NCBI RefSeq assembly: GCF_945956965.1
Contig: NZ_CAMFJS010000009.1
Location: forward strand, 1 to 64,000
DNA from: an uncultured Roseateles sp.
GTDB lineage: Bacteria > Pseudomonadota > Gammaproteobacteria > Burkholderiales > Burkholderiaceae_C
Reading direction: 5' to 3'
Length of the DNA: 64,000 nt
The first letter of the stretch is position 1. Every line of letters starts with the position of its first letter. The notes beneath the pieces are model-generated. The model was not told where the DNA came from, made no database searches, and worked only from the letters and a program-made list of their open reading frames with translations. Of the stretch, positions 1 to 12,196 are shown in pieces. A program made the translations under genes and the position numbers.

Positions 1-64
1 TATCTGGAAGATAAGCGATAGACCGTGTCCGGAGATTCAGGGGGCTATCTCACTACCTCAGCAA

Positions 65-112
65 CCCCTGTCAATCAGGGGGCAACACTACACTAGATGA
101 TCGGGATCATCT
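65..112 (+). promoter_or_regulatory. Candidate operator and hairpin before the ATPase-PIN-ligase operon
   Basis: Two inverted repeats lie just upstream of the first gene. CCCCTG/CAGGGG (65-70 and 76-81, 5-nt loop) can form a hairpin. AGATGATC/GATCATCT (95-102 and 105-112, 2-nt spacer) is a perfect 8-bp palindrome ending 21 nt before the ATG and just before the AGGAG ribosome site at 119-123. A dimeric repressor site is the simplest reading, but no regulator gene is present in the operon. No convincing -35/-10 pair was found, only a weak TACACT at 89-94. Confidence 0.4.
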
Positions 113-133
113 GAAACTAGGAGCGTTGCGCTG

Positions 134-1528
134 ATGCTGACTTCCTTTCACATCAAGAATTTCAAGGCCTGGAAAGATACCGGCCCCATACGACTAGCAC
201 CATTGACTGTGATTTTTGGCGCCAATAGCGCTGGCAAGAGCAGCTTGGGTCATTTGTTGCTGGCACTTAAACAGACCAGCTTATCAGCAGACAGAAAACG
301 ACCACTCCACTTGGGAGATGAAAATTCCCTGATTGATTTAGGTACATTTGCCGAGTGCCTTCATAATCACGAGCTACAGCATGCTCTTGAATTTTCCTTG
401 GGATGGGAAATTCCTGGAAAAGAACTTGAAATACGGAATCCGCTCAACAAGGAGAGATTTGCGGGTGATGAATTGAGGCTTGACGTTAAGCTTTCAGCTG
501 ATGCCAAAGAGCAGCCGAGAGTGGATAGGCTGAGCTATAAATTGTTGCGTGATAGCGCCAATCAACTCTCCGTTGAATTTAGTAGGGATGGAAAAGGCAA
601 GCTCGAAATTGCATCAGATGAATACAAGCTTGTTCGCAATACCGGCCGAAGCTGGCCGCTGGATGAGCCAGATAAGTTTCACCGTATTTCTGACCAGAGT
701 CGGGCGCGTTTTCAAAATGCTGAATTTTTGTCCGACTTTGCATTGGCGACAGAAGCTGCGCTGAACAGCGTTTATTATCTTGGGCCACTGCGAGAGCACC
801 CGAAACGCATATATTCGTGGTCAGGTGAAACGCCGGAAAGTGTGGGGCAGAAAGGTGAATTTGCGATTGCTGCCATTCTGGCTGCGAGTGCGCAAGATAG
901 AAAGCTTAATCGTGGTCCCAAGAAGCATCTAACGCGCTTTGATGCGTTTGTCGCGCAATGGCTCAAGGATCTGGGGATTATCGATGGGTTTGCTGTTAAG
1001 CCCGTGGCGGAAGGTAGAAAAGAATATGAAGTTGTCGTCAAAACACATGCTGCCGCTAGCGAAGTAAAGATTACCGATGTCGGGTTTGGTGTGTCACAGG
1101 TATTGCCGGCATTGGTTCAGGCTTTCTATTGTCCGCCACATTCCACCATCTGGATGGAGCAACCAGAAATTCATTTGCATCCTCAGGTTCAGGCGGAGCT
1201 AGCTGATGTTTTCATTTCTGCGACGCAAGCTCGCGAGAATGGTAAGGAGCGCCATGTTCAGTTGATAGTCGAAAGTCATTCAGAACATTTTCTTAATCGC
1301 CTACAGCGGCGCGTTGCGGAAGGTGTCGTTTCGCCGGAAGATGTGGCTGTATATTTTTGCCGCCGTGCTGGTTCAGTAACTGAATTGGAGCCTTTGCGCC
1401 TCAATATGTATGGTGAAATAGAAAACTGGCCAGAATACTTCTTTGGCGACGAAATGGCCGATATTGCTGGACGCACATTGGCGGCGATGCAGCGTAAGAA
1501 GGATCTTGCTAAGGAAACTGGTAGATGA
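134..1528 (+). CDS. AAA/ABC-type ATPase, DUF3696/OLD-like
   Basis: The 464-aa protein has the plan of SMC/OLD-like ATPases: Walker A GANSAGKS at residues 29-36, an ABC-type signature around residues 313-323 (VGFGVSQVLP), Walker B TIWMEQPEIHLHP at about 336-348, and a switch histidine in ESHSEHF near 380. The C-terminal layout resembles the DUF3696 group. No nuclease (TOPRIM) domain follows, so a catalytic effector is expected in trans. The start has AGGAG 10 nt upstream. Its stop overlaps the start of the PIN gene. The gene is A+T-richer than the genes from 2982 on, suggesting transfer. ATPases of this type act as sensors or activators in defence systems such as Septu, PARIS and retron-Eco8; that role here is inferred. 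Confidence 0.85.
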   Translation: MLTSFHIKNFKAWKDTGPIRLAPLTVIFGANSAGKSSLGHLLLALKQTSLSADRKRPLHLGDENSLIDLGTFAECLHNHELQHALEFSLGWEIPGKELEIRNPLNKERFAGDELRLDVKLSADAKEQPRVDRLSYKLLRDSANQLSVEFSRDGKGKLEIASDEYKLVRNTGRSWPLDEPDKFHRISDQSRARFQNAEFLSDFALATEAALNSVYYLGPLREHPKRIYSWSGETPESVGQKGEFAIAAILAASAQDRKLNRGPKKHLTRFDAFVAQWLKDLGIIDGFAVKPVAEGRKEYEVVVKTHAAASEVKITDVGFGVSQVLPALVQAFYCPPHSTIWMEQPEIHLHPQVQAELADVFISATQARENGKERHVQLIVESHSEHFLNRLQRRVAEGVVSPEDVAVYFCRRAGSVTELEPLRLNMYGEIENWPEYFFGDEMADIAGRTLAAMQRKKDLAKETGR

Positions 1529-2064
1529 TGAGGGTCGTTATTGATACCAATGTGCTTCTGGTCGCTAATGGGCAACATGCTGATGTATCTCCGGATTGTG
1601 TTGCCGAGTGTGTGAGACGACTGCAGGCTATGGAGAAGAACGGCGTAACGGTAATTGACGACGGTTATCGCATTCTTGGCGAGTATCAAAACAAGACCAA
1701 CATAAGACAGCCAAAAGGGGTTGGTGATGTGTTCTTAAAATGGCTGTTGCGCCAAACAGCTAACCAAAGCCGAGTGGAGCAAGTCAACCTAACCGAGTTG
1801 GCGGAGAACGAATTCGCAGAATTTCCGGATGCGAGCTTGCAACGCGTTTTTGATCCACCAGATCGCAAATTCGCCGCTGTGGCGCATGCTCATCCAGATA
1901 AGCCATCTGTATGGCAAGCGGCGGACTGCAAATGGTTGGACTGGTGGTCCGCACTTCAGGTGAAGGAGATTCGCGTCGAATTTTTGTGTCCGGAAGATGC
2001 TTGTGGGTTTTATCGCAAAAAGTTTCCCGACAAGTTGCCACCTGTTTTGCCCGGCTGGAAATGA
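1525..2064 (+). CDS. PIN-like ribonuclease domain protein
   Basis: The 179-aa protein starts VVIDTNVLL, the first acidic motif of PIN nucleases (Asp7). A second acidic residue follows in RILGEY near 53, and later acidic positions occur in DPPDRKFAAVA (about 109-119) and ADCKWLDW (about 131-138). This spacing fits a PIN-fold metal-dependent RNase. The ATG at 1525 overlaps the ATPase stop (ATGATG; 1528 is an alternative start) and the stop overlaps the ligase start, so the three proteins are translationally coupled. There is no adjacent VapB-like antitoxin, so a plain VapBC pair is unlikely; the ATPase or the ligase may provide control. The RNA target cannot be deduced. Confidence 0.75.
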   Translation: MMRVVIDTNVLLVANGQHADVSPDCVAECVRRLQAMEKNGVTVIDDGYRILGEYQNKTNIRQPKGVGDVFLKWLLRQTANQSRVEQVNLTELAENEFAEFPDASLQRVFDPPDRKFAAVAHAHPDKPSVWQAADCKWLDWWSALQVKEIRVEFLCPEDACGFYRKKFPDKLPPVLPGWK

Positions 2065-2762
2065 ACTCTGAATTTTTTCGCTTTCCCCACACCCCGCACT
2101 TGGCATGGCTCGGCCAAGGGGCGCCACGCGACGACAAAGTTTTGTCGTCATTTGAGGTTGACGCGCTGCTGGCAACAGAAGTGGTGGTGGAAGAAAAGCT
2201 TGACGGCGCCAATTTGGGCTTTTCTTTGGCGCCCGATTTGGTTTTACGTATGCAAAATCGTGGGAATTATTTGGCTGAACCTTATTCTGGACAATTTTCC
2301 CGTTTGCCGGCTTGGCTTGGGCAAAAGGGCGACGCCCTGCGATCCGTTCTGGCTCCCAACATCATTTTGTTCGGCGAGTGGTGCGCTGCGCGCCATTCGC
2401 TCGACTATCTCGCGCTTCCCGACTGGTTTTTGTTGTTTGATGTGTATGACCGCAGCGTAGGTCGTTTTTGGAGCAGTTCCCGCCGCGATGCTCTTGCCGA
2501 CGATGCTGGGTTGGCCACAGTGCCGCAGATGGCTCGGGGAAAGTTCTCGGTTTCCGCTTTGAAACGGTTGGTCACATCAACGAGTAGCCGATATCGCCAG
2601 GGGCCGCCGGAAGGACTGGTGGTTCGCCAAGATTCTGCTCAGTGGTGCGAGGCTAGGGCGAAGCTTGTACGGGATGACTTCACTCAGTGCATGGACACGC
2701 ATTGGCGCAAGCGAATCATTGAATGGAATCGAGTGGATTCAAGCCTTAATCGCCGGTTTTGA
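2061..2762 (+). CDS. RNA ligase family protein (Rnl2-like nucleotidyltransferase)
   Basis: I choose the ATG at 2061 (ATGA overlap with the PIN stop), giving 233 aa; the frame stays open upstream but lies within the PIN gene. Nucleotidyltransferase motifs appear in order: motif I EKLDGANLG with the AMP-accepting lysine at residue 46, motif III LFGEWC, motif IIIa FLLFDVYD, motif IV PEGLVVR, and motif V ARAKLVR. This is the core of ATP-dependent RNA ligases that seal 3'-OH/5'-phosphate breaks. No C-terminal ligase domain is obvious, so it is a minimal ligase. Coupled to a PIN nuclease, it could repair the breaks made by its partner or modify RNA ends; this is inference. Confidence 0.85.
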   Translation: MNSEFFRFPHTPHLAWLGQGAPRDDKVLSSFEVDALLATEVVVEEKLDGANLGFSLAPDLVLRMQNRGNYLAEPYSGQFSRLPAWLGQKGDALRSVLAPNIILFGEWCAARHSLDYLALPDWFLLFDVYDRSVGRFWSSSRRDALADDAGLATVPQMARGKFSVSALKRLVTSTSSRYRQGPPEGLVVRQDSAQWCEARAKLVRDDFTQCMDTHWRKRIIEWNRVDSSLNRRF

Positions 2763-2947
2763 TTTGGGAACGAGGGGAAAGAGTTCGATTGAAAATCGAT
2801 CAAGCTGGATATCGGAAAAGAAGGTCGATGTATTGAATATTGGTTGATAACAAGCCTTAATCCTTAGCGCCGTTGCGCTCAGAATCTGGTCGTCGCCGCC
2901 TCGATCCCCAATCCAGTCTCTCGAAGCCCGCATCAACCCGCAGCCAA

Positions 2948-2970
2948 GCGCCCGCCATCCCGACGGGCGC
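2948..2970 (-). terminator. Hairpin after the puuA-like gene
   Basis: A perfect 7-bp G+C-rich inverted repeat (GCGCCCG/CGGGCGC) begins 11 nt past the stop of the minus-strand gene at 2982. Only two T residues follow, so termination would be inefficient or factor-assisted. The rest of the 219-nt gap (2763-2947) is A+T-rich and contains no gene I can support. Confidence 0.4.
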
Positions 2971-2981
2971 CCCAGCATCAC

Positions 2982-4343
2982 TTAAACCTGCGGCAACAAG
3001 AACCGCCTCTCCCAGGCGCTGATCTCGTTCTGGAAGCTCTCAAATTCAAGGCCTTTGACCGACAGATAGCCTTGCACAAACTCCGCGCCCAGCAGGCGGG
3101 CGGCGCCTTCGCTCAGGGCCATGGCTTGGTGGGCGTGGATGAAGCTGCGGGGCAGGTCGTGGGCGTGGTCGTAGGCGTTGCCGACCAGGGGCTCGGTGGG
3201 GCGCAGGCCTTCTTGCATGCCGGCCAGGCCGGCGGCGAGTGAGGCGGCGATGGCCAGGTAAGGGTTGGCGTCGGCGCCAGCGATACGGTTCTCTACCCGG
3301 CGGGCGGCCGGGCCGCTGCCGGGGATGCGCAGGCCGGTGGTGCGGTTGTCGTGGCCCCAGTGCAGGTTGACGGGGGCTTGGCTGCCGCTCACATAGCGGC
3401 GGTAGGAGTTGATGAAGGGGGCGTAGATCAGCATCAGCTCGGGCGTGTAGCGCTGCAGCCCGGCGATGAACTGGAAGAAGGCCGGGGTGGCGCTGCCGTC
3501 CGGCGCGGAGAAGATGTTGTTGCCGCCGGCGTCGACGATGCTCTGGTGCAGGTGCATGGAGCTGCCGGCTTCACCGCTGATGGGCTTGGCCATGAACACG
3601 GCGTTGAGGCCGTGTTTGAGCGCCACTTCCTTGGCCGCGTACTTGAACAAAAAGGCTTGGTCGGCCACGGTGACGGGGTCGTCGTGCAGCAGATTGATTT
3701 CGTACTGCGTGCGGCCCACTTCGTGGATCCAGGTGTCGGCGGCAATGCCCAGGGTGTCGATGGCGGCGTGGAACTCGTCCCAGAAGGGCGCCAGCTCATT
3801 GAGCATATTGAGGCTGAAGGCCGATTGGCCGGCCTCGGCCCGGCCGCTGCGGCCGAGCGGGGCGCTCAAGGGCTGGGCGGGGTCGTGGCTGGCGGCGCAG
3901 AGATAAAACTCGATCTCGGGCGCCACCACCGGTTGTAGGCCCAGCGCGTGGTAACGGGCCAGCACGCTTTTCAGCAGGCTGCGCGGCGCCAGCGGCGAGA
4001 GCTGGCCGCTCCAAGGGCCGCTGATCTCCAGGCAGTCGTGAATGGCCATGTATCGCGGCCGGCTGGCCCAGGGCACGGGTCGGAGGGTGCTCAGGTCAGG
4101 CAGCAGGCGCACATCGGGGTCGGCGTCCGGGAAGATCGGGTCGTAGGAATACTCGCCGGTCACGCATTGCATGGCAATGGCCTGGGCAATGCGCAACTCC
4201 TGGCCGCGCGCGAAGCTGGCTGCGGGCATGAGCTTGCCGCGCGGATAGCCGGACACATCCGGGAAGATGCATTCCACATCACGCACGCCTTCGATTTGAA
4301 AGCGGGCGGCCAGTTGTTCCGAAACGGCTTGCGCCTGGGTCAT
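2982..4343 (-). CDS. puuA: Glutamine synthetase family protein, gamma-glutamylputrescine synthetase-like
   Basis: The 453-aa protein is full length for the GlnA-like/PuuA group, which ligates glutamate to putrescine or another amine using ATP. Visible family motifs include APEIEFYL, GEAGSSMHLHQS (ligand and ATP region), NSYRRYV and the metal/ATP segment ENRIAGADANPYLAIAA. The tyrosine loop of true assimilatory GlnA is not evident. It lies 17 nt downstream of a ParA-family gene on the same strand, so the two are probably cotranscribed. No other puu genes are nearby, so the amine substrate is uncertain and the symbol is tentative. Confidence 0.75.
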   Translation of the reverse strand: MTQAQAVSEQLAARFQIEGVRDVECIFPDVSGYPRGKLMPAASFARGQELRIAQAIAMQCVTGEYSYDPIFPDADPDVRLLPDLSTLRPVPWASRPRYMAIHDCLEISGPWSGQLSPLAPRSLLKSVLARYHALGLQPVVAPEIEFYLCAASHDPAQPLSAPLGRSGRAEAGQSAFSLNMLNELAPFWDEFHAAIDTLGIAADTWIHEVGRTQYEINLLHDDPVTVADQAFLFKYAAKEVALKHGLNAVFMAKPISGEAGSSMHLHQSIVDAGGNNIFSAPDGSATPAFFQFIAGLQRYTPELMLIYAPFINSYRRYVSGSQAPVNLHWGHDNRTTGLRIPGSGPAARRVENRIAGADANPYLAIAASLAAGLAGMQEGLRPTEPLVGNAYDHAHDLPRSFIHAHQAMALSEGAARLLGAEFVQGYLSVKGLEFESFQNEISAWERRFLLPQV

Positions 4344-4360
4344 AGCGTGGACTCTTGAAG

Positions 4361-5128
4361 TTATGGCAGCGATTCAAACAGCGCCAGATATTCCTGCGTG
4401 AGCTTGTGGCGCGGATCCAGATGGATCATAGGCCGAGCCAGCTCGTGCGACTCCTTGATCTTGACGCTGGAGCTGAGGTAGGGCTGCAGCACCGGCAGGC
4501 CTTCGTCGATCAGCTCTTGCACCGTGCGCTGCGGCAGGCTGGCGCGGGGCTGGAACTGGTTCACCACAATGCCTTCCACGGCCAGCTCGTGGTTGTGGTC
4601 GGCCTGGATTTCACTCACGCTGTCCAGCAGGCCGTAGAGGGCGCGGCGCGAGAAGTCGTCGCAGTCAAAGGGGATCAGGCAGCTGTCCGCTGCGATCAGG
4701 GCGGAGCGGGTGTAGAAGTTCAGCGCCGGCGGCGTGTCGATCCAGATCTGGTCGTAGTCTTCGGCCAAGCCTTGCAAGGCCTCACGCAACTTGTAGATCT
4801 TGTAGCGGCTTTCCAGCTTGCTGTGCAGCTCTTCCAGCTTGGGGCTGGAGCGCATCACATGCAGATTCTCCCAGGGGCTGGCGCTGATGAAATCGGCCAT
4901 CTTGGGCGGCCGCACGCTGAAGCTCAGGGTGGATTCGAAGAACTCTGTGGCGCCGTGCTGGCCGGCCTCATCGGCCGCTTCGCCCAGCAGATAGCGGGTG
5001 GAGTTGCCCTGCGCGTCCAGGTCCACCACCAAGGTGCGCAAGCCCTGCTGCGCCGCGATGGCCGCGAGGTTGCTGGTGATGGTGGATTTACCCACGCCGC
5101 CCTTTTGATTGAACACAACACGTCGCAT
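4361..5128 (-). CDS. ParA/MinD-family ATPase
   Basis: A deviant Walker A KGGVGKST sits at residues 9-16 and a Walker B-like segment reads IWIDTPPALN, typical of ParA/Soj partition ATPases. I start at 5128 because AAAGGG lies 7 nt upstream and the family begins right before the P-loop; an earlier ATG at 5173 would add 15 unlikely residues. The product is 255 aa. No parB or parS-like cluster is adjacent, so this is an orphan ParA, perhaps positioning a protein complex. It is followed after 17 nt by the glutamine synthetase-like gene. Confidence 0.85.
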   Translation of the reverse strand: MRRVVFNQKGGVGKSTITSNLAAIAAQQGLRTLVVDLDAQGNSTRYLLGEAADEAGQHGATEFFESTLSFSVRPPKMADFISASPWENLHVMRSSPKLEELHSKLESRYKIYKLREALQGLAEDYDQIWIDTPPALNFYTRSALIAADSCLIPFDCDDFSRRALYGLLDSVSEIQADHNHELAVEGIVVNQFQPRASLPQRTVQELIDEGLPVLQPYLSSSVKIKESHELARPMIHLDPRHKLTQEYLALFESLP

Positions 5129-5353
5129 GCCTGACCCTTTGCTGAAGCTGATGGCAGAGCGAGTATTGTGCACTGCAGCAATTACAAAATTGCGGGGCTA
5201 GAACTAGGTGTCTACACGGCTGTGGCGGGCGGTCGCGCCAGCGGCGCCCTCACGGGCGGCAGATGACAATGCGGTACTTTTCCCGGCACGGTCCACCGTG
5301 AGCGCCAATGGGCCGTTAGCAGTTCACCTTCACCGCCAGCTTGAGCGCTACTG

Positions 5354-6103
5354 ATGCAGCACCATTCCCCCATTGACAAGCCCGCGCCAATCACAGCCTC
5401 GCGCTACACGGCTGCTGGCGCCGCCGCGCTCTTGAGCCTGTTGCTGAGTGCTTGCGCTTTCCCCACCCCCCGCATGACCCCGCCGCCTGACATTGCGCCC
5501 AACGCCGATGTGCTGGAGGTCGCCAATCGCAGCAGCTTTATCGGCTCGCTGGTGGATGAGTCCTTCGATGTCGGCCCCTACCGGGTGACCGAGGTCAAAC
5601 GCGGCTGGGGCTCGAACAGCAGCACCACGCTGGGCAATGTCACGGTGCAGACGAGCAGCTCAGGATTTCGCTTTGGGTTCAATGGCACGGCCGACCATTG
5701 GCAGGGCCGCTGCGACTACCGAGCGCAGTCGCGCCTCGTGCAAGTTGGCAATGTCGGCGATCTGGAAGAGGACAAGGCCAATTTGCGCTGTAGCTGCCGC
5801 AGCGACAACAAAGAGCGCGAAGTCAGCTTCGATCTGGACGATGAATGGCGCCCCTTGCGCGGCGCGCTGCTGATCGACGGCAGCCGTTACGAGCTGCAGC
5901 AATACAGCTTTGGCCGGCATCGCGGCGGCCTCAAGTCACCGGCCTCGGGCTACCGGGTTGAACGTGAAGGCAGCGGCGCCGGTGTGGCCGCCGTCGAGGT
6001 GCTGCACCCCGGGCGCATCTGGCTGCAGCGCAGCTTGCCGGCTGAGCAGCGCGAGCCCATGGCTTGCCTGATGTCGGCCTTGATGATTTACGGCTCGCAA
6101 TAA
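5354..6103 (+). CDS. Putative lipoprotein, unknown function
   Basis: The 249-aa protein has a signal peptide with lipobox LLSAC (lipidated Cys near residue 34), so it is probably anchored to the outer membrane. A proline-rich linker follows, then a beta-rich domain with no motif I recognise. Cysteines in the mature part (GRCDYR, LRCSCRS, MACLM) could form disulfides. It is divergent from parA; the 225-nt gap holds no recognisable site. The N-region before the hydrophobic core is long (about 20 residues), so the true start could lie slightly downstream. Confidence 0.7.
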   Translation: MQHHSPIDKPAPITASRYTAAGAAALLSLLLSACAFPTPRMTPPPDIAPNADVLEVANRSSFIGSLVDESFDVGPYRVTEVKRGWGSNSSTTLGNVTVQTSSSGFRFGFNGTADHWQGRCDYRAQSRLVQVGNVGDLEEDKANLRCSCRSDNKEREVSFDLDDEWRPLRGALLIDGSRYELQQYSFGRHRGGLKSPASGYRVEREGSGAGVAAVEVLHPGRIWLQRSLPAEQREPMACLMSALMIYGSQ

Positions 6104-6140
6104 GTCAATCAATCAATCTACCGGCGCGCCGCTTGGGCCA

Positions 6141-6884
6141 TCAGCGGCCCGCCGCACCCTTGTCTTTGCCATTCGCCGCGCGGCAACGCTGAATGTCGCA
6201 AGCGGTGGGCAGCTGGGCGCGGTATTCGGTGACGGTCTTGAGCTGACTCGGGTCGCGGGCCAGGCAGTGCTGGCCTTTGCCGTCGTCGTAGTACGAGGTC
6301 ACATCGACACAGCGGCGCGAATGCGCCACCAGGCCGTAGAGGTGGCCCATCTCATGCGAGATGGTCATCTGCAGGGTTTCGCCCGCCGGGTGCCTGGGGT
6401 TGCGGCGCTTCAGCAGCTCAAAGCCTGCCGGGCTCAAGGCCAAGCGGCGCTGGGTCAGATTGGCCAGGGCGAAGCTGCCGCGCGTTTCGGCATCGCTCCA
6501 CAGCACCTGCACATTGCCGGGGTTGGCAGCCATCAGCGCGGGCGTCATCTCACCACGCACCACCAGGCCCGGCACGCCGCAGGCGGACCAGGCCTCGGCC
6601 GCGCGCTCCAGCGCGGTAAACACTGCGCGCTCGTTGAACTGAGGGGCCGCGCCGCTATGGTCGTAAACAAACACCAGCTTGGCGGCCACGGCCGCGCGGT
6701 CTTTGCCATCGCCCCAGGTGCTGATCTCACCGGGCCGGCATTCGGCCATTTCCTGTTCGCGCACGCTGGGCTGAGCCTGGGCCTGGCACAGGCAGGGCAT
6801 CAGCAAAGCCCCCATGATCCAGACGATATGTAAAGGATGCTTTACATATTTACAGCCTCTGACTAAGATGAAATTGGAAAGCAT
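6141..6884 (-). CDS. Secreted zinc metalloprotease-like protein
   Basis: A signal-peptide-like segment (WIMGALLMPCLC, then a likely cut after AQA) precedes a domain with HEMGHLYGLVAH, close to the metzincin zinc motif HExxHxxGxxH but with the third histidine one residue late. A hydrolase in the periplasm or outside the cell is likely. Start choice is difficult: 6884 gives the only N-terminus with positive residues before the hydrophobic core but has no ribosome site and overlaps the operator at 6826-6849; ATG 6815 would avoid this but gives a poor signal peptide. It is divergent from the membrane protein/XRE pair and may share its operator. Confidence 0.65.
   Translation of the reverse strand: MLSNFILVRGCKYVKHPLHIVWIMGALLMPCLCQAQAQPSVREQEMAECRPGEISTWGDGKDRAAVAAKLVFVYDHSGAAPQFNERAVFTALERAAEAWSACGVPGLVVRGEMTPALMAANPGNVQVLWSDAETRGSFALANLTQRRLALSPAGFELLKRRNPRHPAGETLQMTISHEMGHLYGLVAHSRRCVDVTSYYDDGKGQHCLARDPSQLKTVTEYRAQLPTACDIQRCRAANGKDKGAAGR
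6826..6869 (+). promoter_or_regulatory. Promoter with overlapping palindromic operator for the membrane protein/XRE operon
   Basis: A perfect 10-bp inverted repeat (ATATGTAAAG at 6826-6835, CTTTACATAT at 6840-6849) overlaps a -35 TTTACA (6841-6846). A -10 TAAGAT (6864-6869) follows at 17 bp. A further half-site GCTTTACA lies at 6885-6892, just before the ribosome site. The arrangement predicts autorepression by the small XRE protein encoded second in the operon and possible co-control of the divergent metalloprotease. Confidence 0.7.
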
Positions 6885-6902
6885 GCTTTACAGGAGCGGG
6901 CC

Positions 6903-7316
6903 ATGATGACCATGAAGACGACAAACGCCAATACCGGCAGGAGCCGCCAGTATCTGAAGGAACTGGGCGGCGCGATGCTGGCATATGCCGTGGTTTTGCT
7001 GGCCTCCATCACCTGGCTGAATAGCCATGCCGACCTGGCCAGCCCCTGGCGCGACCTGGCTGCGCTCAGCCCCATGCTGCCGGCCGTGGCGGTGCTGTGG
7101 GCCATCATGCGCCAGATGCGGCGGCTGGACGAATTGCAGCGCCGGGTGCAGTTCGAGGCCCTGGCCTTCGCCTTTGCGGGCACCGCCTTGCTGAGCTTTG
7201 GCTACGGCTTTCTGGAAGGGCTGGGCTACCCGCGTTTGTCCATGTTTGTGGTGTGGGGCGCGATGGCGCCTTTGTGGGTGCTGGGCCTGCTGATCGCCGC
7301 GCGGCGCTACCGCTGA
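6903..7316 (+). CDS. Small integral membrane protein, unknown function
   Basis: The 137-aa protein has four predicted hydrophobic segments (about residues 24-41, 55-68, 85-106 and 113-132) with a charged loop MRQMRRLDELQRR between the second and third. The start has CAGGAG 7 nt upstream. Its stop overlaps the start of the XRE regulator (TGATG). Pairs of a small membrane protein with a short YozG-like XRE regulator are common in bacteria, but their job is unknown. Confidence 0.75.
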   Translation: MMTMKTTNANTGRSRQYLKELGGAMLAYAVVLLASITWLNSHADLASPWRDLAALSPMLPAVAVLWAIMRQMRRLDELQRRVQFEALAFAFAGTALLSFGYGFLEGLGYPRLSMFVVWGAMAPLWVLGLLIAARRYR

Positions 7317-7507
7317 TGAAGAACTCGCTGCGCGAATTGCGCGCCCAGCGCGGCTGGTCGCAAACCGATCTGGCCGAGCGGCTGAATGTGTCTCGGCAAA
7401 CCGTCAACGCCATCGAAAACGAGCGTTATGACCCCAGCCTGCCGCTGGCCTTCCAGATCGCCAAATTGTTTGACTGCACCATCGAGGCGATCTTTTCGGC
7501 CGACTGA
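7316..7507 (+). CDS. Short XRE-family transcriptional regulator
   Basis: The 63-aa protein is almost entirely one helix-turn-helix: LRELRAQRGWSQTDLAERLN, then SRQTVNAIENERYDP and a C-terminal helix typical of YozG-type XRE proteins. Its ATG overlaps the upstream stop. It most likely binds the palindrome at 6826-6849 as a dimer and represses its own operon. Confidence 0.9.
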   Translation: MKNSLRELRAQRGWSQTDLAERLNVSRQTVNAIENERYDPSLPLAFQIAKLFDCTIEAIFSAD

Positions 7508-7530
7508 GCGTTCACCAAAAACGGGCTTGA

Positions 7531-8352
7531 TCAGGCGGCCACGCCGATGATCACGCTGGAGGCCTTGAACAGCGCGGTGGCCGCCAAGCCGGGGCGCAAG
7601 CCCAAGCTGTCGGCGCTGGCTTGGGTGATGATGGCCGCCACGGTGCCGCCGCCCTGCAGTTCCAGTACCACCTCGCAATTGACGGCGCCGGGTTGCAAGC
7701 GCAAGACCTGACCCCGCAGCTGGTTGCGGGCCGACAGCTTCACGTCTTGCTCTCCGGTCATCAGGATGATGCTGGAGGCCTTCACCAGCGCGAAGGCCTT
7801 GGCGCCAAGCGTCAGCCCCAGCTCAAGCCGGCTCTCGCGGGTGACGCTGGCCACGATTTGCTGGCCGCCGATGATGCTCAGCGTGATTTCGTCATTCACC
7901 GCGCCGGGGCGCATCTCGCGGACCGTCCCGGCAAACTGATTTCTGGCGCTGGTTTTCATGGCAATGCTGCCCATCAGGGCGTAGTCGGCGTGCAGGCCTT
8001 GGGCTTGGGTGTTGAGGCGCGCGATGAAGCGGGCGTGTTCTTGCTGGATCAGCGCGTAGTTGGCCACCAGGGCTTCGCCGCGTGGCGTCAGGCGGCTAAA
8101 ACCCCCGCCCTTGCCGCCGGCCAGGCGCTCCAGCAGCGGCTCACCGGCCAGGTTGCTCATCAGCTCAATCGCGTTCCAGGCGCCCTTATAGCTATAGCCC
8201 ACCGCCTTGGCCGCTTGGGTGAGTGAGCCCAGCGCTGCAATCTGCGCCAGCAAGGCCAGCTGGCGGCTGCCGCCCAGGTCCTGGCCTTGCAAGCTCAGGC
8301 GCAGTTCGGCGGCCAGCTGGAGCTGGGAGTCTTCAGTCGTGCTCGGGCTCAT
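7531..8352 (-). CDS. modE: Molybdate-responsive regulator ModE
   Basis: The 273-aa protein has an N-terminal winged helix (about residues 1-115; [19 protein letters not shown] is the HTH) and two C-terminal molybdate-binding TOBE/Mop domains, each beginning SARNQ (about 138-205 and 210-273). ModE with molybdate represses mod transport genes. It is the last gene of modABCE and overlaps modC by 20 nt, so it represses its own operon through the box at 10519-10546. The duplicated Mop domains are normal for full-length ModE. Confidence 0.93.
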
Positions 8353-9013
8353 CGGGGTTCCTCACGATGCGGCCGTCGCGCAGCTGCAATTGGGTCTCGC
8401 CGAACAGGGCCAAGTCGTCCGGGTCGTGGGTGATCATCAGCAGCGGGATCTGCAGCTCGGCCAGCAGGGCTTGCAAGCTTTCGCGCAGACGGCCGCGCAA
8501 GGCGGGGTCCAGGGCCGAGAAAGGTTCGTCCAGCAGCAGGGCGCGCGGCTGGGTGATCAGTGCGCGCGCCAAGGCCGTGCGCTGGCGCTGGCCGCCTGAG
8601 AGCTGATGCGGCAGCTGCTGGGCTAGCGGGCTCAGTTCAAGCCGGTCCAGCCAATGCTGCACGGCGGGCAGGGCGGCGGCTTTGCGCGCACTGGGGTTGA
8701 GCCAGCCGCGCTGTAGGCCGAAGGCAATGTTCTGCGCCACGGTGAGTTGGGGGAAGAGGGCGTAATCCTGGAACAGATAGGCAAAGCCGCGCTCGCGCGC
8801 AGGCACATCGGGCCCGCCCGCCGCGAACAAGGTTTGGCCTTGGAAGGCGATGCGGCCGCTGTCGGGGCGCAGCAGGCCGGCGATGGCCTGCAGGGTCAGG
8901 CTCTTGCCCGCGCCCGAGGGACCGTAGACGACGGTGTTGCGCGCCTGGCTGTGGAAGCTCACATCCAGGCTGAACTTGGCGCTGATGCGCTTGCGGATCT
9001 GGACCTCGATCAC
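8333..9013 (-). CDS. modC: Molybdate ABC transporter ATPase ModC
   Basis: Walker A GPSGAGKS is at residues 31-38, the signature reads LSGGQRQR, Walker B is [12 protein letters not shown], and the switch histidine is in MITHDPDD. At 226 aa it lacks the C-terminal TOBE/Mop domain of the usual ~350-aa ModC, so molybdate sensing is probably left to ModE, encoded immediately after. Its start overlaps the modB stop (ATGA-type). Confidence 0.92.
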
Positions 9014-9717
9014 GCCTCGGCCCTCCGCGTGGCCGGCGCCAAACGACCGGCCGCCAGCAGCACAACCACGCAGGTGATGGAGATGATGATGACCAGGCTG
9101 TTGGCCAGCTCATCTTGCCCACTCTGCACCGCCTCGTAGACGGCGATGGACAGGGTTTGGGTGCGGCCGGGGATGCTGCCCGCCACCATCAGCGTGGCGC
9201 CAAACTCACCCAGCGCCCGCGCAAAGGCCAGCAGCAGCCCGGCCAGAATGCCACGCCAGGCCAGCGGCAAGCTAACGCGGAAGAACAGCGCCGCCTCGCT
9301 CAGGCCCAGCACGCGGGCGGCCTGGGCCAGTTGCGGGTCGAGGTTTTCAAACGCCGCGCGGGCCGACTTCATCACCAGCGGGAAAGACACCAGGGTGGCG
9401 GCAATCACCGCGCCCTGCCAGCTGAAGATCAGGGTGATGCCGAAATGCTCGAACAGCCAGGCGCCCAGCGGCCCGCGCTTGCCGATCAGCACCAGCAAGT
9501 AGTAGCCCAACACCGTGGGCGGCAAGACCATGGGCAGGGTCAGCAGAGCATCAAGCAGCTCGCGGCCGGGAAACACCCGCAGCCGGGCCAGCGCGAAGCC
9601 GGCCGCCGTGCCCAGCAGCAGATTCAGCCCGGTGGCCCACAGCGCCACCTTGAGCGAGAGCGCCAGCGCGGGCCAGCTGGCCTGCAGGGCTGCGAACAAA
9701 GCCGTGTCTCCGCTCAC
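9010..9717 (-). CDS. modB: Molybdate ABC transporter permease ModB
   Basis: The 235-aa inner-membrane protein has about five transmembrane helices and the ABC-permease coupling motif [17 protein letters not shown] characteristic of ModB. It starts five nucleotides after modA ends and overlaps modC. It forms the channel of the molybdate importer with ModA (binding protein) and ModC (ATPase). Confidence 0.93.
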
Positions 9718-9722
9718 AACGT

Positions 9723-10487
9723 TCAGGGCGCCAGAAAACCGTGGCGCGCCAGCACGGCCTGGGCGCCTGGGCTCTGCAGATAGCTGAGGAACTGCCCGGC
9801 GAGCTTGGCGTTAGCGCTGCCGCTCACGATGGCGGCGGGGTAAAGAATCGGTTCGGCGGTGGGGATGATGAAGGCGGTCTTGACCTTGTCCGCTGCCTGG
9901 GCGGCGTCGGTGGCGTAGACGATGCCGGCCTCGGCCTCGCCGCGCGCCACATAGTCCAGGGCCTGGCGCACGTTCTGGGCGTAAACGGCCTTGGGGGCGA
10001 GGGCGGTCCACAGGCTGGCGGCCTCCAGCGCGCTCTTGGCATAGCGGCCGGCTGGCACGCCCTCGGGGCGGCCCAGGGCCAGGCGGGTGAAGGCGGGGTT
10101 TTGCAAGTCGGCCAAGGACTTCGGCGGCGTCACGCCCGCCGCGCTGATCAGCACCAGCTGATTGCGGGTGAAGTTGCGCCGGCTGCCCGGGGCGAGCAAG
10201 CCTTGCGACTGCGCCCGGTCCATGCTGATCTGGTCGGCCGCGGCGAACACATCCACCGGCGCGCCCTTGGCGATTTGGGCCAGCAAGGCGTCAGAGGCGG
10301 CGAAGTTGAACAGCAGCTTGCTGCCCGGCTGCTGCGCTTCAAAGCCCGGCGCCAACTCCTTGAAGGCATTGCTGAGGCTGGCGGCTGCGGAGACCGTCAA
10401 TTCGGCGGCCTGAGCCGCAGGCGCCAAGGCGCTCAGACTGCTCAGCAGAACAAGGGAGAGGCGGAGCAGGGCGGTGCGTAAAAGCAT
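9723..10487 (-). CDS. modA: Periplasmic molybdate-binding protein ModA
   Basis: The 254-aa protein has a Sec signal peptide (cut near AQAAE) followed by LTVSAAASLSNAFKELAP, the conserved ModA start that contributes oxyanion-binding serines. Further family segments are FNFAASDALLAQI and the Tyr-containing GIVYATDA. It is the first gene of modABCE, with a ModE box 32 nt upstream. Confidence 0.93.
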   Translation of the reverse strand: MLLRTALLRLSLVLLSSLSALAPAAQAAELTVSAAASLSNAFKELAPGFEAQQPGSKLLFNFAASDALLAQIAKGAPVDVFAAADQISMDRAQSQGLLAPGSRRNFTRNQLVLISAAGVTPPKSLADLQNPAFTRLALGRPEGVPAGRYAKSALEAASLWTALAPKAVYAQNVRQALDYVARGEAEAGIVYATDAAQAADKVKTAFIIPTAEPILYPAAIVSGSANAKLAGQFLSYLQSPGAQAVLARHGFLAP

Positions 10488-10518
10488 GGCGGGCGGGGTG
10501 ATCAGAAGCGGGTTCAGG

Positions 10519-10546
10519 CTCGAAATATAGCTGACTACATAACGAC
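10519..10546 (-). promoter_or_regulatory. ModE binding box upstream of modA
   Basis: Arms CTCGAAATATA and TACATAACGAC separated by 6 nt match the known ModE palindrome (ATCGCTATATA-N6-TATATAACGAT) at 8/11 and 9/11 positions. The site lies 32 nt before the modA start, where bound ModE would block transcription of modABCE. Between here and chaA (10547-10810) I see no gene or known riboswitch. Confidence 0.85.
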
Positions 10547-10810
10547 TGCGCTCGGATGGATCTTGGCGGAACGACGCAGGCTTGTGCGCTCTGGGCTTGG
10601 GCGGTGCATGTGTGCCCGGGCGCTGGCGGCTTTGCTGCCAAAGTCGGCGGTTATATTGGTGGGGCTAGCTCGCGCGCTGATGGCTGCACAGTCGCCCTCT
10701 CTCAATTGGGCACGACGCCCGCCCTGAATTCAGCGCCAAGCTCGGGGCCCTAACGAGCCACCCGCCCGTCCGGCCCTCGTTCAATTTCAGAAGTTCAAGG
10801 ACAGTCATCA

Positions 10811-11917
10811 ATGCCACAAACCCATGCCCCGCAGCCACTCTGGACCATTGCCGCCCCCGTGATCGGCTGGCTTTTGCTGGGTGGTCAGGCCATGGGTTTG
10901 AGCCAAAACCTGGGGATGATTTACCAGGGCTTGATGATTGCCGGCTTGCTGGGCGGCGTGCTGGCCGCCGTGCATCACGCGGAGGTGGTGGCGCACCGGG
11001 TGGGCGAGCCGCTGGGCAGCCTGATTCTGGCGGGCGCCATCACGGCCATCGAGGTGGCGCTGATCGTCACGCTGATGCTGGCCGGCGGCGAGTCGGCCAC
11101 CACGCTGGCGCGCGACACGGTGTTCGCCACCGTGATGATCATCCTCAACGGCATCGTCGGCATCTGCTTGCTGGTGGGCGGGCACCGGCATCTGGAGCAG
11201 CGCTTTGAGATCAAGGGCGTCAACGCGGCGCTGAGCACCTTGGCCGCCATCGTGGTGCTGACCATGGTGCTGCCGGTGTTCACCAGCAGCGTGCCCGGCC
11301 CGCTCTACAGCGATAGTCAGCTGGGCTTTATCGCGGTGATCTGCTTGCTGCTGTATGCGGCCTTTCTGTTCATCCAGACGATTCGCCACCGCGACTACTT
11401 TTTGCCCTCGGCCGAGGATGCGGCCCTGGCCGGTGACGACGCCCATGTGGCGCCGCCCAGCACGCGCGCCGCGTGGATCAGCGCCGGCTTGCTGGTGCTG
11501 GGCTTGGCGGCCGTGGTTTTGCTGGCCAAGTCGATCTCGCCCTTGATTGAGGCTGGGGTGGCGGCCATCGGCGCGCCGGCCACCTTGGTGGGCGTGATCA
11601 TTGCGGCCATCGTCTTGCTGCCCGAAGGCCTGGCGGCTCTTGGTGCCGCCAAGGCCAATCTCTTGCAGACCAGCCTCAACCTGGCCCTGGGCTCGGCCCT
11701 GGCCAGCATTGGCCTGACCATCCCGGTTGTGGCCTTGGTGGCGATTGCCAATGGCTGGCAACTCACCCTGGGCCTGGACGCCGCGTCCATCGTGCTCGTC
11801 ACCTTGTCCCTGATGGTGGCGACACTATCTCTGGGTACCGGCCGCACCACGGTGTTGCAAGGCGTGGTGCACCTGGCGATCTTCGCGACCTATTTGTTCA
11901 TGACCGTGTTCCCCTGA
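10811..11917 (+). CDS. chaA: Calcium/proton antiporter, ChaA family
   Basis: The 368-aa protein has about eleven hydrophobic segments and the two CaCA-type repeats: GEPLGSLILAGAITAIEVALI near residues 66-86 and LLPEGLAALGAAKANLLQTSLNLALGSALASIGLTIP near 272-308, each with the ion-binding acidic residue. It exchanges Ca2+ (or Na+/K+) for protons across the inner membrane. The start has AAGGA 9 nt upstream. It is a single gene, divergent from modA. Confidence 0.85.
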   Translation: MPQTHAPQPLWTIAAPVIGWLLLGGQAMGLSQNLGMIYQGLMIAGLLGGVLAAVHHAEVVAHRVGEPLGSLILAGAITAIEVALIVTLMLAGGESATTLARDTVFATVMIILNGIVGICLLVGGHRHLEQRFEIKGVNAALSTLAAIVVLTMVLPVFTSSVPGPLYSDSQLGFIAVICLLLYAAFLFIQTIRHRDYFLPSAEDAALAGDDAHVAPPSTRAAWISAGLLVLGLAAVVLLAKSISPLIEAGVAAIGAPATLVGVIIAAIVLLPEGLAALGAAKANLLQTSLNLALGSALASIGLTIPVVALVAIANGWQLTLGLDAASIVLVTLSLMVATLSLGTGRTTVLQGVVHLAIFATYLFMTVFP

Positions 11918-11956
11918 GCGGGGTGAACGGAGAGCCCGGGGCGGCGTGTGCCGGGT

Positions 11957-12196
11957 TCAGCCGCTGTAGCGCAGCGAGGCGTCCAGTTGGTCGACCAATT
12001 CAGCCCAATCGGCGTCGTCACAGCGTTGCTCGCACAGCATCTCGGCCTGCGCCGGGCTCCAGAAGGGCGCATCGGCCAAGCGGATCTCAGGCGCCAGCGG
12101 CGCGTGACGGCTCAGGAACGCGTGGATGCTCACCGGGTCATTGGGCAGGCCCAGTTGCGCAAACAGTTCGTGGAAACGGTGATGTGCTTTGTCCAT
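11957..12196 (-). CDS. DUF2789 family protein
   Basis: The 79-aa protein matches my memory of the DUF2789 family: H..FHELFAQLGLP near the N-terminus, then LADAPFWSPAQAEML and DADWAELVDQLDASLR. Function is unknown. It lies convergent to chaA with a short gap and upstream of the XdhC gene on no shared strand signal that I can see. Confidence 0.8.
   Translation of the reverse strand: MDKAHHRFHELFAQLGLPNDPVSIHAFLSRHAPLAPEIRLADAPFWSPAQAEMLCEQRCDDADWAELVDQLDASLRYSG

Follow-up and report, generated by a model that had tools for sequence, protein, structure and literature searches.

An RNA ligase gene conserved beside the ATPase and PIN-like nuclease genes of the candidate system HEC-03

The window analysed here, a 64,000-nucleotide stretch of the genome of an uncultured Roseateles sp., opens with three overlapping genes for an ATPase, a PIN-like nuclease and an RNA ligase. 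The locus raises the question of why an enzyme predicted to cut RNA should share an operon with one predicted to join it, and whether the three genes make up a system that has gone unnamed. We conclude that the new part is the conserved third gene, the ligase, which is missing from the PADLOC models of the published candidate HEC-03.

The operon and its three proteins

All three genes lie on the forward strand, with an ATGA overlap at both junctions. The first (134-1528) encodes an OLD/ABC-type ATPase of 464 aa with a C-terminal DUF3696 region, the second (1525-2064) a PIN-like nuclease of 179 aa, and the third (2061-2762) a single-domain, ATP-dependent RNA ligase of 233 aa. The ligase frame begins at 1911 in the list of open reading frames; its start was set at 2061 because homologues and the gene overlap point there. 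Measured by 500-base windows, G+C is 46-55% across positions 1-2750 versus 61-71% across 3001-12000, a pattern as for recently acquired DNA. These values and the frame coordinates agree with the initial annotation, which had described three genes joined by ATGA-type overlaps and richer in A+T than the DNA beyond about 3 kb. Contig C9 begins with the window, and the opening 52-55 bases are found again at the ends of two further contigs from the same genome, C11 and C13. A repeat therefore sits upstream of the trio (positions 1-55, no strand assigned); it is probably the end of a repeated element, which we infer to be a mobile one.

The ATPase matched AAA_15 (4e-22), AAA_21 (5e-15) and DUF3696 (1e-10) in Pfam and HEC-03B (1e-131) in PADLOC, where AriA models also matched (1e-24). 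When loosened motif patterns were applied to whole ATPase frames from 97 loci, Walker A was found in 96 and the signature, Walker B and H-loop in all 97 each; the single Walker A miss, L061, is a frame interrupted by a contig end. Strict patterns applied to the matched ATPase segments only found the same motifs in 83, 88, 96 and 97 of the 97, respectively. The ligase matched PF09414 (9e-32). It contains the elements EKLDG (with K46), FGEW, EG and AKLV, which we take to be motifs I, III, IV and V, and residues K46, E106, E184 and K201 are unchanged in 77 of 77 aligned rows, the row of the window counted. A structure model of the ligase (pLDDT 89) matches the Naegleria, archaeal Rnl3 and T4 Rnl2 ligases, and with 233 residues the protein consists of one catalytic domain. 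Profile searches with all three proteins, suggested in the initial annotation, thus matched the ATPase (AAA_15, DUF3696) and the ligase (PF09414), and the motif and residue counts bear out its description of an OLD/DUF3696-like ATPase with intact P-loop motifs and of a minimal RNA ligase with intact motifs.

The accompanying call of a PIN-like nuclease fared less evenly. It is favoured by four acids (D7, E53, D113 and D134) that are unchanged in 80 of 80 aligned rows, again with the window counted and with L042 (a near-duplicate) and L064 (a shortened frame) left out of the alignment, and by an AlphaFold model (pLDDT 93) in which the order of strands and helices, read visually, is PIN-like. 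It is weakened by Pfam, which returned PIN_3 alone, under the cut-off at an E value of 0.12. A Pfam PIN family was reached at E <= 0.05 in 5 of 80 homologues (best 0.0056), and searches of PDB sequences with the protein gave chance-like matches only. As a call from sequence, the PIN assignment is weak.

In PADLOC the PIN-like protein matched HEC-03A (8e-28) and no other model. Adjacent genes of the window therefore encode matches to both HEC-03 proteins as modelled in PADLOC. HECs, or Hma-embedded candidates, were introduced by Payne et al. 2024, as cited in PMC11411939; no Hma genes are visible next to the copy in the window, which starts at the contig end. The ATPase-PIN pair is thus ruled out as an unnamed new system, and the earlier statement that the trio carries no name stands only for the ligase, which matched no PADLOC model at E <= 1.

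Other known systems resemble the trio in part. PARIS (AriA-AriB) likewise joins an ATPase to a metal-dependent RNase, and its AriA models match the window ATPase. However, HEC-03B fits that ATPase far better, and the AriB Toprim partner is absent: the partner here is a PIN-like protein that matches HEC-03A only in PADLOC, and a ligase is added. HARP-Rnl3 likewise links a PIN-superfamily nuclease genetically to an ATP-dependent RNA ligase, but in the portion of PMC12153264 consulted HARP and the ligase are described as rarely co-linear and no ATPase is mentioned, whereas here a single-domain ligase belongs to a coupled operon. The HARP domain (PF09745) is not among the Pfam matches of the window PIN protein or of 80 homologues. 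VapBC differs in that no small DNA-binding VapB gene lies beside the PIN gene, which here sits between ATPase and ligase genes. T4 Pnkp-Rnl1, Pnkp1-Rnl-Hen1 and the HD-kinase and RNA ligase pairs described below have a ligase from the same broad superfamily, but with an end-healing enzyme in place of the nuclease gene. A literature search that covered few subscription papers found no description of an ATPase-PIN-ligase trio.

Recurrence and co-divergence of the trio

Genome loci were found with a PIN profile; of 138 relatives confirmed in this way the 80 best were kept, which tilts the sample towards close kin. Among these 80, the ATPase gene lies upstream of the PIN gene in all 80 and the ligase gene downstream in 77. 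The synteny check proposed with the initial annotation thus gave an order that is kept (77/80 of the best 80 of 138), and some neighbours match restriction and other defence models. The loci span Beta-, Gamma- and Alphaproteobacteria, Spirochaetota and bins labelled Cyanobacteria and Chloroflexota. Four-base overlaps were seen between ATPase and PIN genes at 62 of 94 loci and between PIN and ligase genes at 45 of 94, near-duplicates counted.

In a class sample of 369 genomes, PIN was found in 6, a ligase relative in 8 and both in 4. A phylum sample of 398 genomes, which overlaps the first and like it contains the query genome, held PIN in 15, a ligase relative in 18 and the adjacent trio in 11. 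Co-occurrence of PIN with a ligase of at least 150 bits in the 398 genomes gave a hypergeometric p of 5e-16, with the query omitted and kinship uncorrected. Of the phylum-sample ligases at or above 150 bits, 11 of 12 lie in a trio, as against 0 of 6 below that score; the twelfth (G007) is a remnant next to a truncated HNH gene. The trio is also carried by plasmids, in eight records from Aeromonas (six), Azotobacter and Tistrella and in one from Rhodococcus, whose ligase is 44% identical. One of the Aeromonas trios has an insertion sequence inside the ligase gene.

Three of the best 80 genome loci have no ligase. At L084 the sequence stops 20 bases past PIN, L059 shows no ligase in the 800 bases of room that follow PIN, and at L072 a gene identified by eye as an integrase comes directly after PIN. 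ATPase-PIN loci without a ligase comprise L072, L179, L180, L215, L217, L218, L219 and the Acinetobacter plasmid L010. Three Acinetobacter plasmid records have PIN with no ligase detected, and in the one fetched (L010) an HNH gene occupies the ligase position. Additionally, two viral contigs (L093 and L094) start within a PIN fragment and have no ligase downstream. Because some ATPase-PIN pairs lack a ligase, resealing appears dispensable and the ligase is not an obligatory antitoxin, a role we had considered and which these loci weaken.

Trees and Mantel tests were built on 87 trios, after removal of the near-duplicates L005, L008, L187, L226 and L042. Mantel r was 0.81 for ATPase-PIN, 0.70 for PIN-ligase and 0.59 for ATPase-ligase, against a null maximum of about 0.33, and with the ATPase held constant the partial PIN-ligase r was 0.46 versus a null maximum of 0.26. 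When five divergent loci were removed, PIN-ligase became the tightest pair (r 0.80 versus 0.72 and 0.63). This co-divergence supports a linkage of PIN and ligase but is no proof of it, since adjacency alone could produce it. Ligase presence mapped on the ATPase tree required six changes, and the ligase has therefore been gained or lost repeatedly. In a second ATPase-PIN lineage (L220-L222), identity to the window proteins is 33-38% for ATPase and PIN but 54-58% for the ligase, and these ligases nest among main-clade ligases in the ligase tree. Transfer of the ligase between the lineages was dropped as a proven event, as topology tests reject no alternative (p 0.144 and 0.44).

Ligases outside trios and RNA end healing

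Eight cellular ligases outside trios were looked at (L011, L182, L183, L184, L216, L223, L224 and L225), and a gene for an HD+AAA_33 kinase adjoins seven of them, the exception being the weakest relative, L225. Two of the seven loci (L011 and L182) were the source of the search seeds, and the HD and AAA_33 domains were shown for the partner proteins of L182 and L183. L011 is the one member of the set taken from 14 plasmid records with a ligase outside a trio. HD-kinase enzymes heal RNA ends, and the seven pairs are likely RNA repair cassettes. In contrast, relatives of the two seed kinases were found in 0 of 81 trio-type loci; the scan, which used these two seeds only, covered L012-L092 (81 loci, 78 with a ligase) and, among those listed, L220-L222 and L226-L230. 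Taken as 0 of 87 trio loci, the difference between trio and non-trio ligases gives a Fisher p of 7e-10.

PIN enzymes should leave 5'-phosphate/3'-OH ends, a kind that a ligase of this type can seal without help. For metal-independent RNA cuts, a kinase and a phosphoesterase are required before such ligases act, according to PMC7824862, and the two-metal RNase AriB gives 5'-P/3'-OH product ends, as stated in PMC12409363. The simplest reading of the missing HD-kinase is that the trio ligase acts on PIN products. That no end-healing enzyme is needed would explain why PIN occupies the place of the HD-kinase partner. The earlier suggestion that the ligase can reverse PIN damage holds in its chemistry, as the ligase type fits the product ends expected of PIN.

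Among 70 viral ligases, an HD-kinase relative was nearby in 2 and PIN in none. One viral contig (L096) encodes at 7998-8663 a ligase of 262 bits, 46% identical to that of the window, with no PIN or ATPase nearby, possibly a phage-borne repair enzyme. Eight records of named phages carry ligase relatives at 26-30% identity, and PIN was found in none of them.

Proposed function and neighbouring genes

The explanation we favour, at slightly better than even chances, is a defence module in which an ATPase controls the cutting of RNA and a sealing enzyme is built in. The ATPase would keep PIN inactive until infection, and PIN, once released, would hydrolyse cellular RNA, with tRNA as the leading guess, to leave 5'-phosphate and 3'-OH ends. 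The ligase, dependent on such ends, would reseal the PIN cuts, and resealing might serve either to repair the breaks that leaky cutting makes while cells are uninfected or to let survivors recover. Counted against the defence module are the tighter ATPase-PIN than PIN-ligase correlation over the 87 trios (0.81 and 0.70), the weak PIN call, the loci without a ligase, and a lack of defence models at E <= 1e-25 in the 55 further open reading frames of the window, a small control from one genome.

A fuller proposal is more tentative, and we place it somewhat below even: a self-reversing abortive defence in which an infection-gated RNA breaker is paired with a sealer matched to the breaker's product ends; divergent ATPase-PIN lineages may also have picked up the ligase on more than one occasion. 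If true, a cell would balance or undo its own RNA damage from one operon. With T4 and PrrC, the example known best, tRNA is cleaved by the host and mended by the phage. If cutting and sealing were paired in a single host operon, the reversibility of abortive infection could be tested directly. Furthermore, the distribution of the ligase suggests that HEC-03, two proteins in the PADLOC models, is nearly always a three-gene module in the branch of the window, and experiments that leave the ligase out of HEC-03 may therefore give a wrong picture of the system.

An unlikely alternative, though the one that survives best, is that the ligase serves as a second effector or processing enzyme that adenylylates PIN-made pieces, circularises them or joins them into new RNAs. 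The resemblance of this single-domain ligase to archaeal Rnl3 and T4 Rnl2 cores would suit such a role, and circularisation and 5'-adenylation are proposed for HARP/Rnl3 in PMC12153264. However, no non-coding RNA was seen: Rfam gave no match at gathering scores in positions 1-4000, and in the flanks of 16 chosen loci, inspected by eye among the alignments listed, nothing obvious was conserved beyond the remains of neighbouring genes.

Less likely again is a ligase that guards host RNA against nucleases of phages or rivals while the ATPase-PIN pair operates as an independent system alongside. ATPase-PIN loci without a ligase and the viral L096 ligase without PIN or ATPase are what this would lead one to see, and RNA ligases mend damage from foreign ribotoxins (PMC4411300). 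Set against this are the gene overlaps, the PIN-ligase co-divergence and the phylum sample, in which the one high-scoring ligase outside a trio is a remnant. Finally, a toxin-antitoxin-like module that maintains plasmids or islands, with the ligase as a repair-type antitoxin and no anti-phage role, would suit the nine plasmid records but is the least probable reading, since ligase loss is tolerated and neighbours match defence models in some loci.

These neighbours were drawn, by a longest-ORF rule, as the 285 genes of 110-1399 aa nearest the trios in 83 loci, after eight loci had been set aside because they were near-duplicates or the window itself. At E <= 1e-25 the PADLOC matches listed (25 of 124, 80 and 62 families) include type I, IIG and III restriction, Hma, HEC-01, Zorya, AbiEii and Old, among which helicase and methylase models can cross-match. 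A relative of an Eco57I-type methylase lies directly upstream of the trio in seven loci, L016 included; the L016 protein had no match in the genome of the window, nor did the HNH_2-type protein of L018, in searches run without a positive control. Of 81 loci, 14 have a gene for an HNH_2-type protein in the vicinity, which in several cases comes immediately after the ligase, and genes of this type follow or replace the ligase at L010, L013, L016, L018, L019, L060, L081 and L095. Downstream of the Rhodococcus plasmid trio (L009), a CAP12/Pycsar TIR-domain gene occupies positions 7277-8161.
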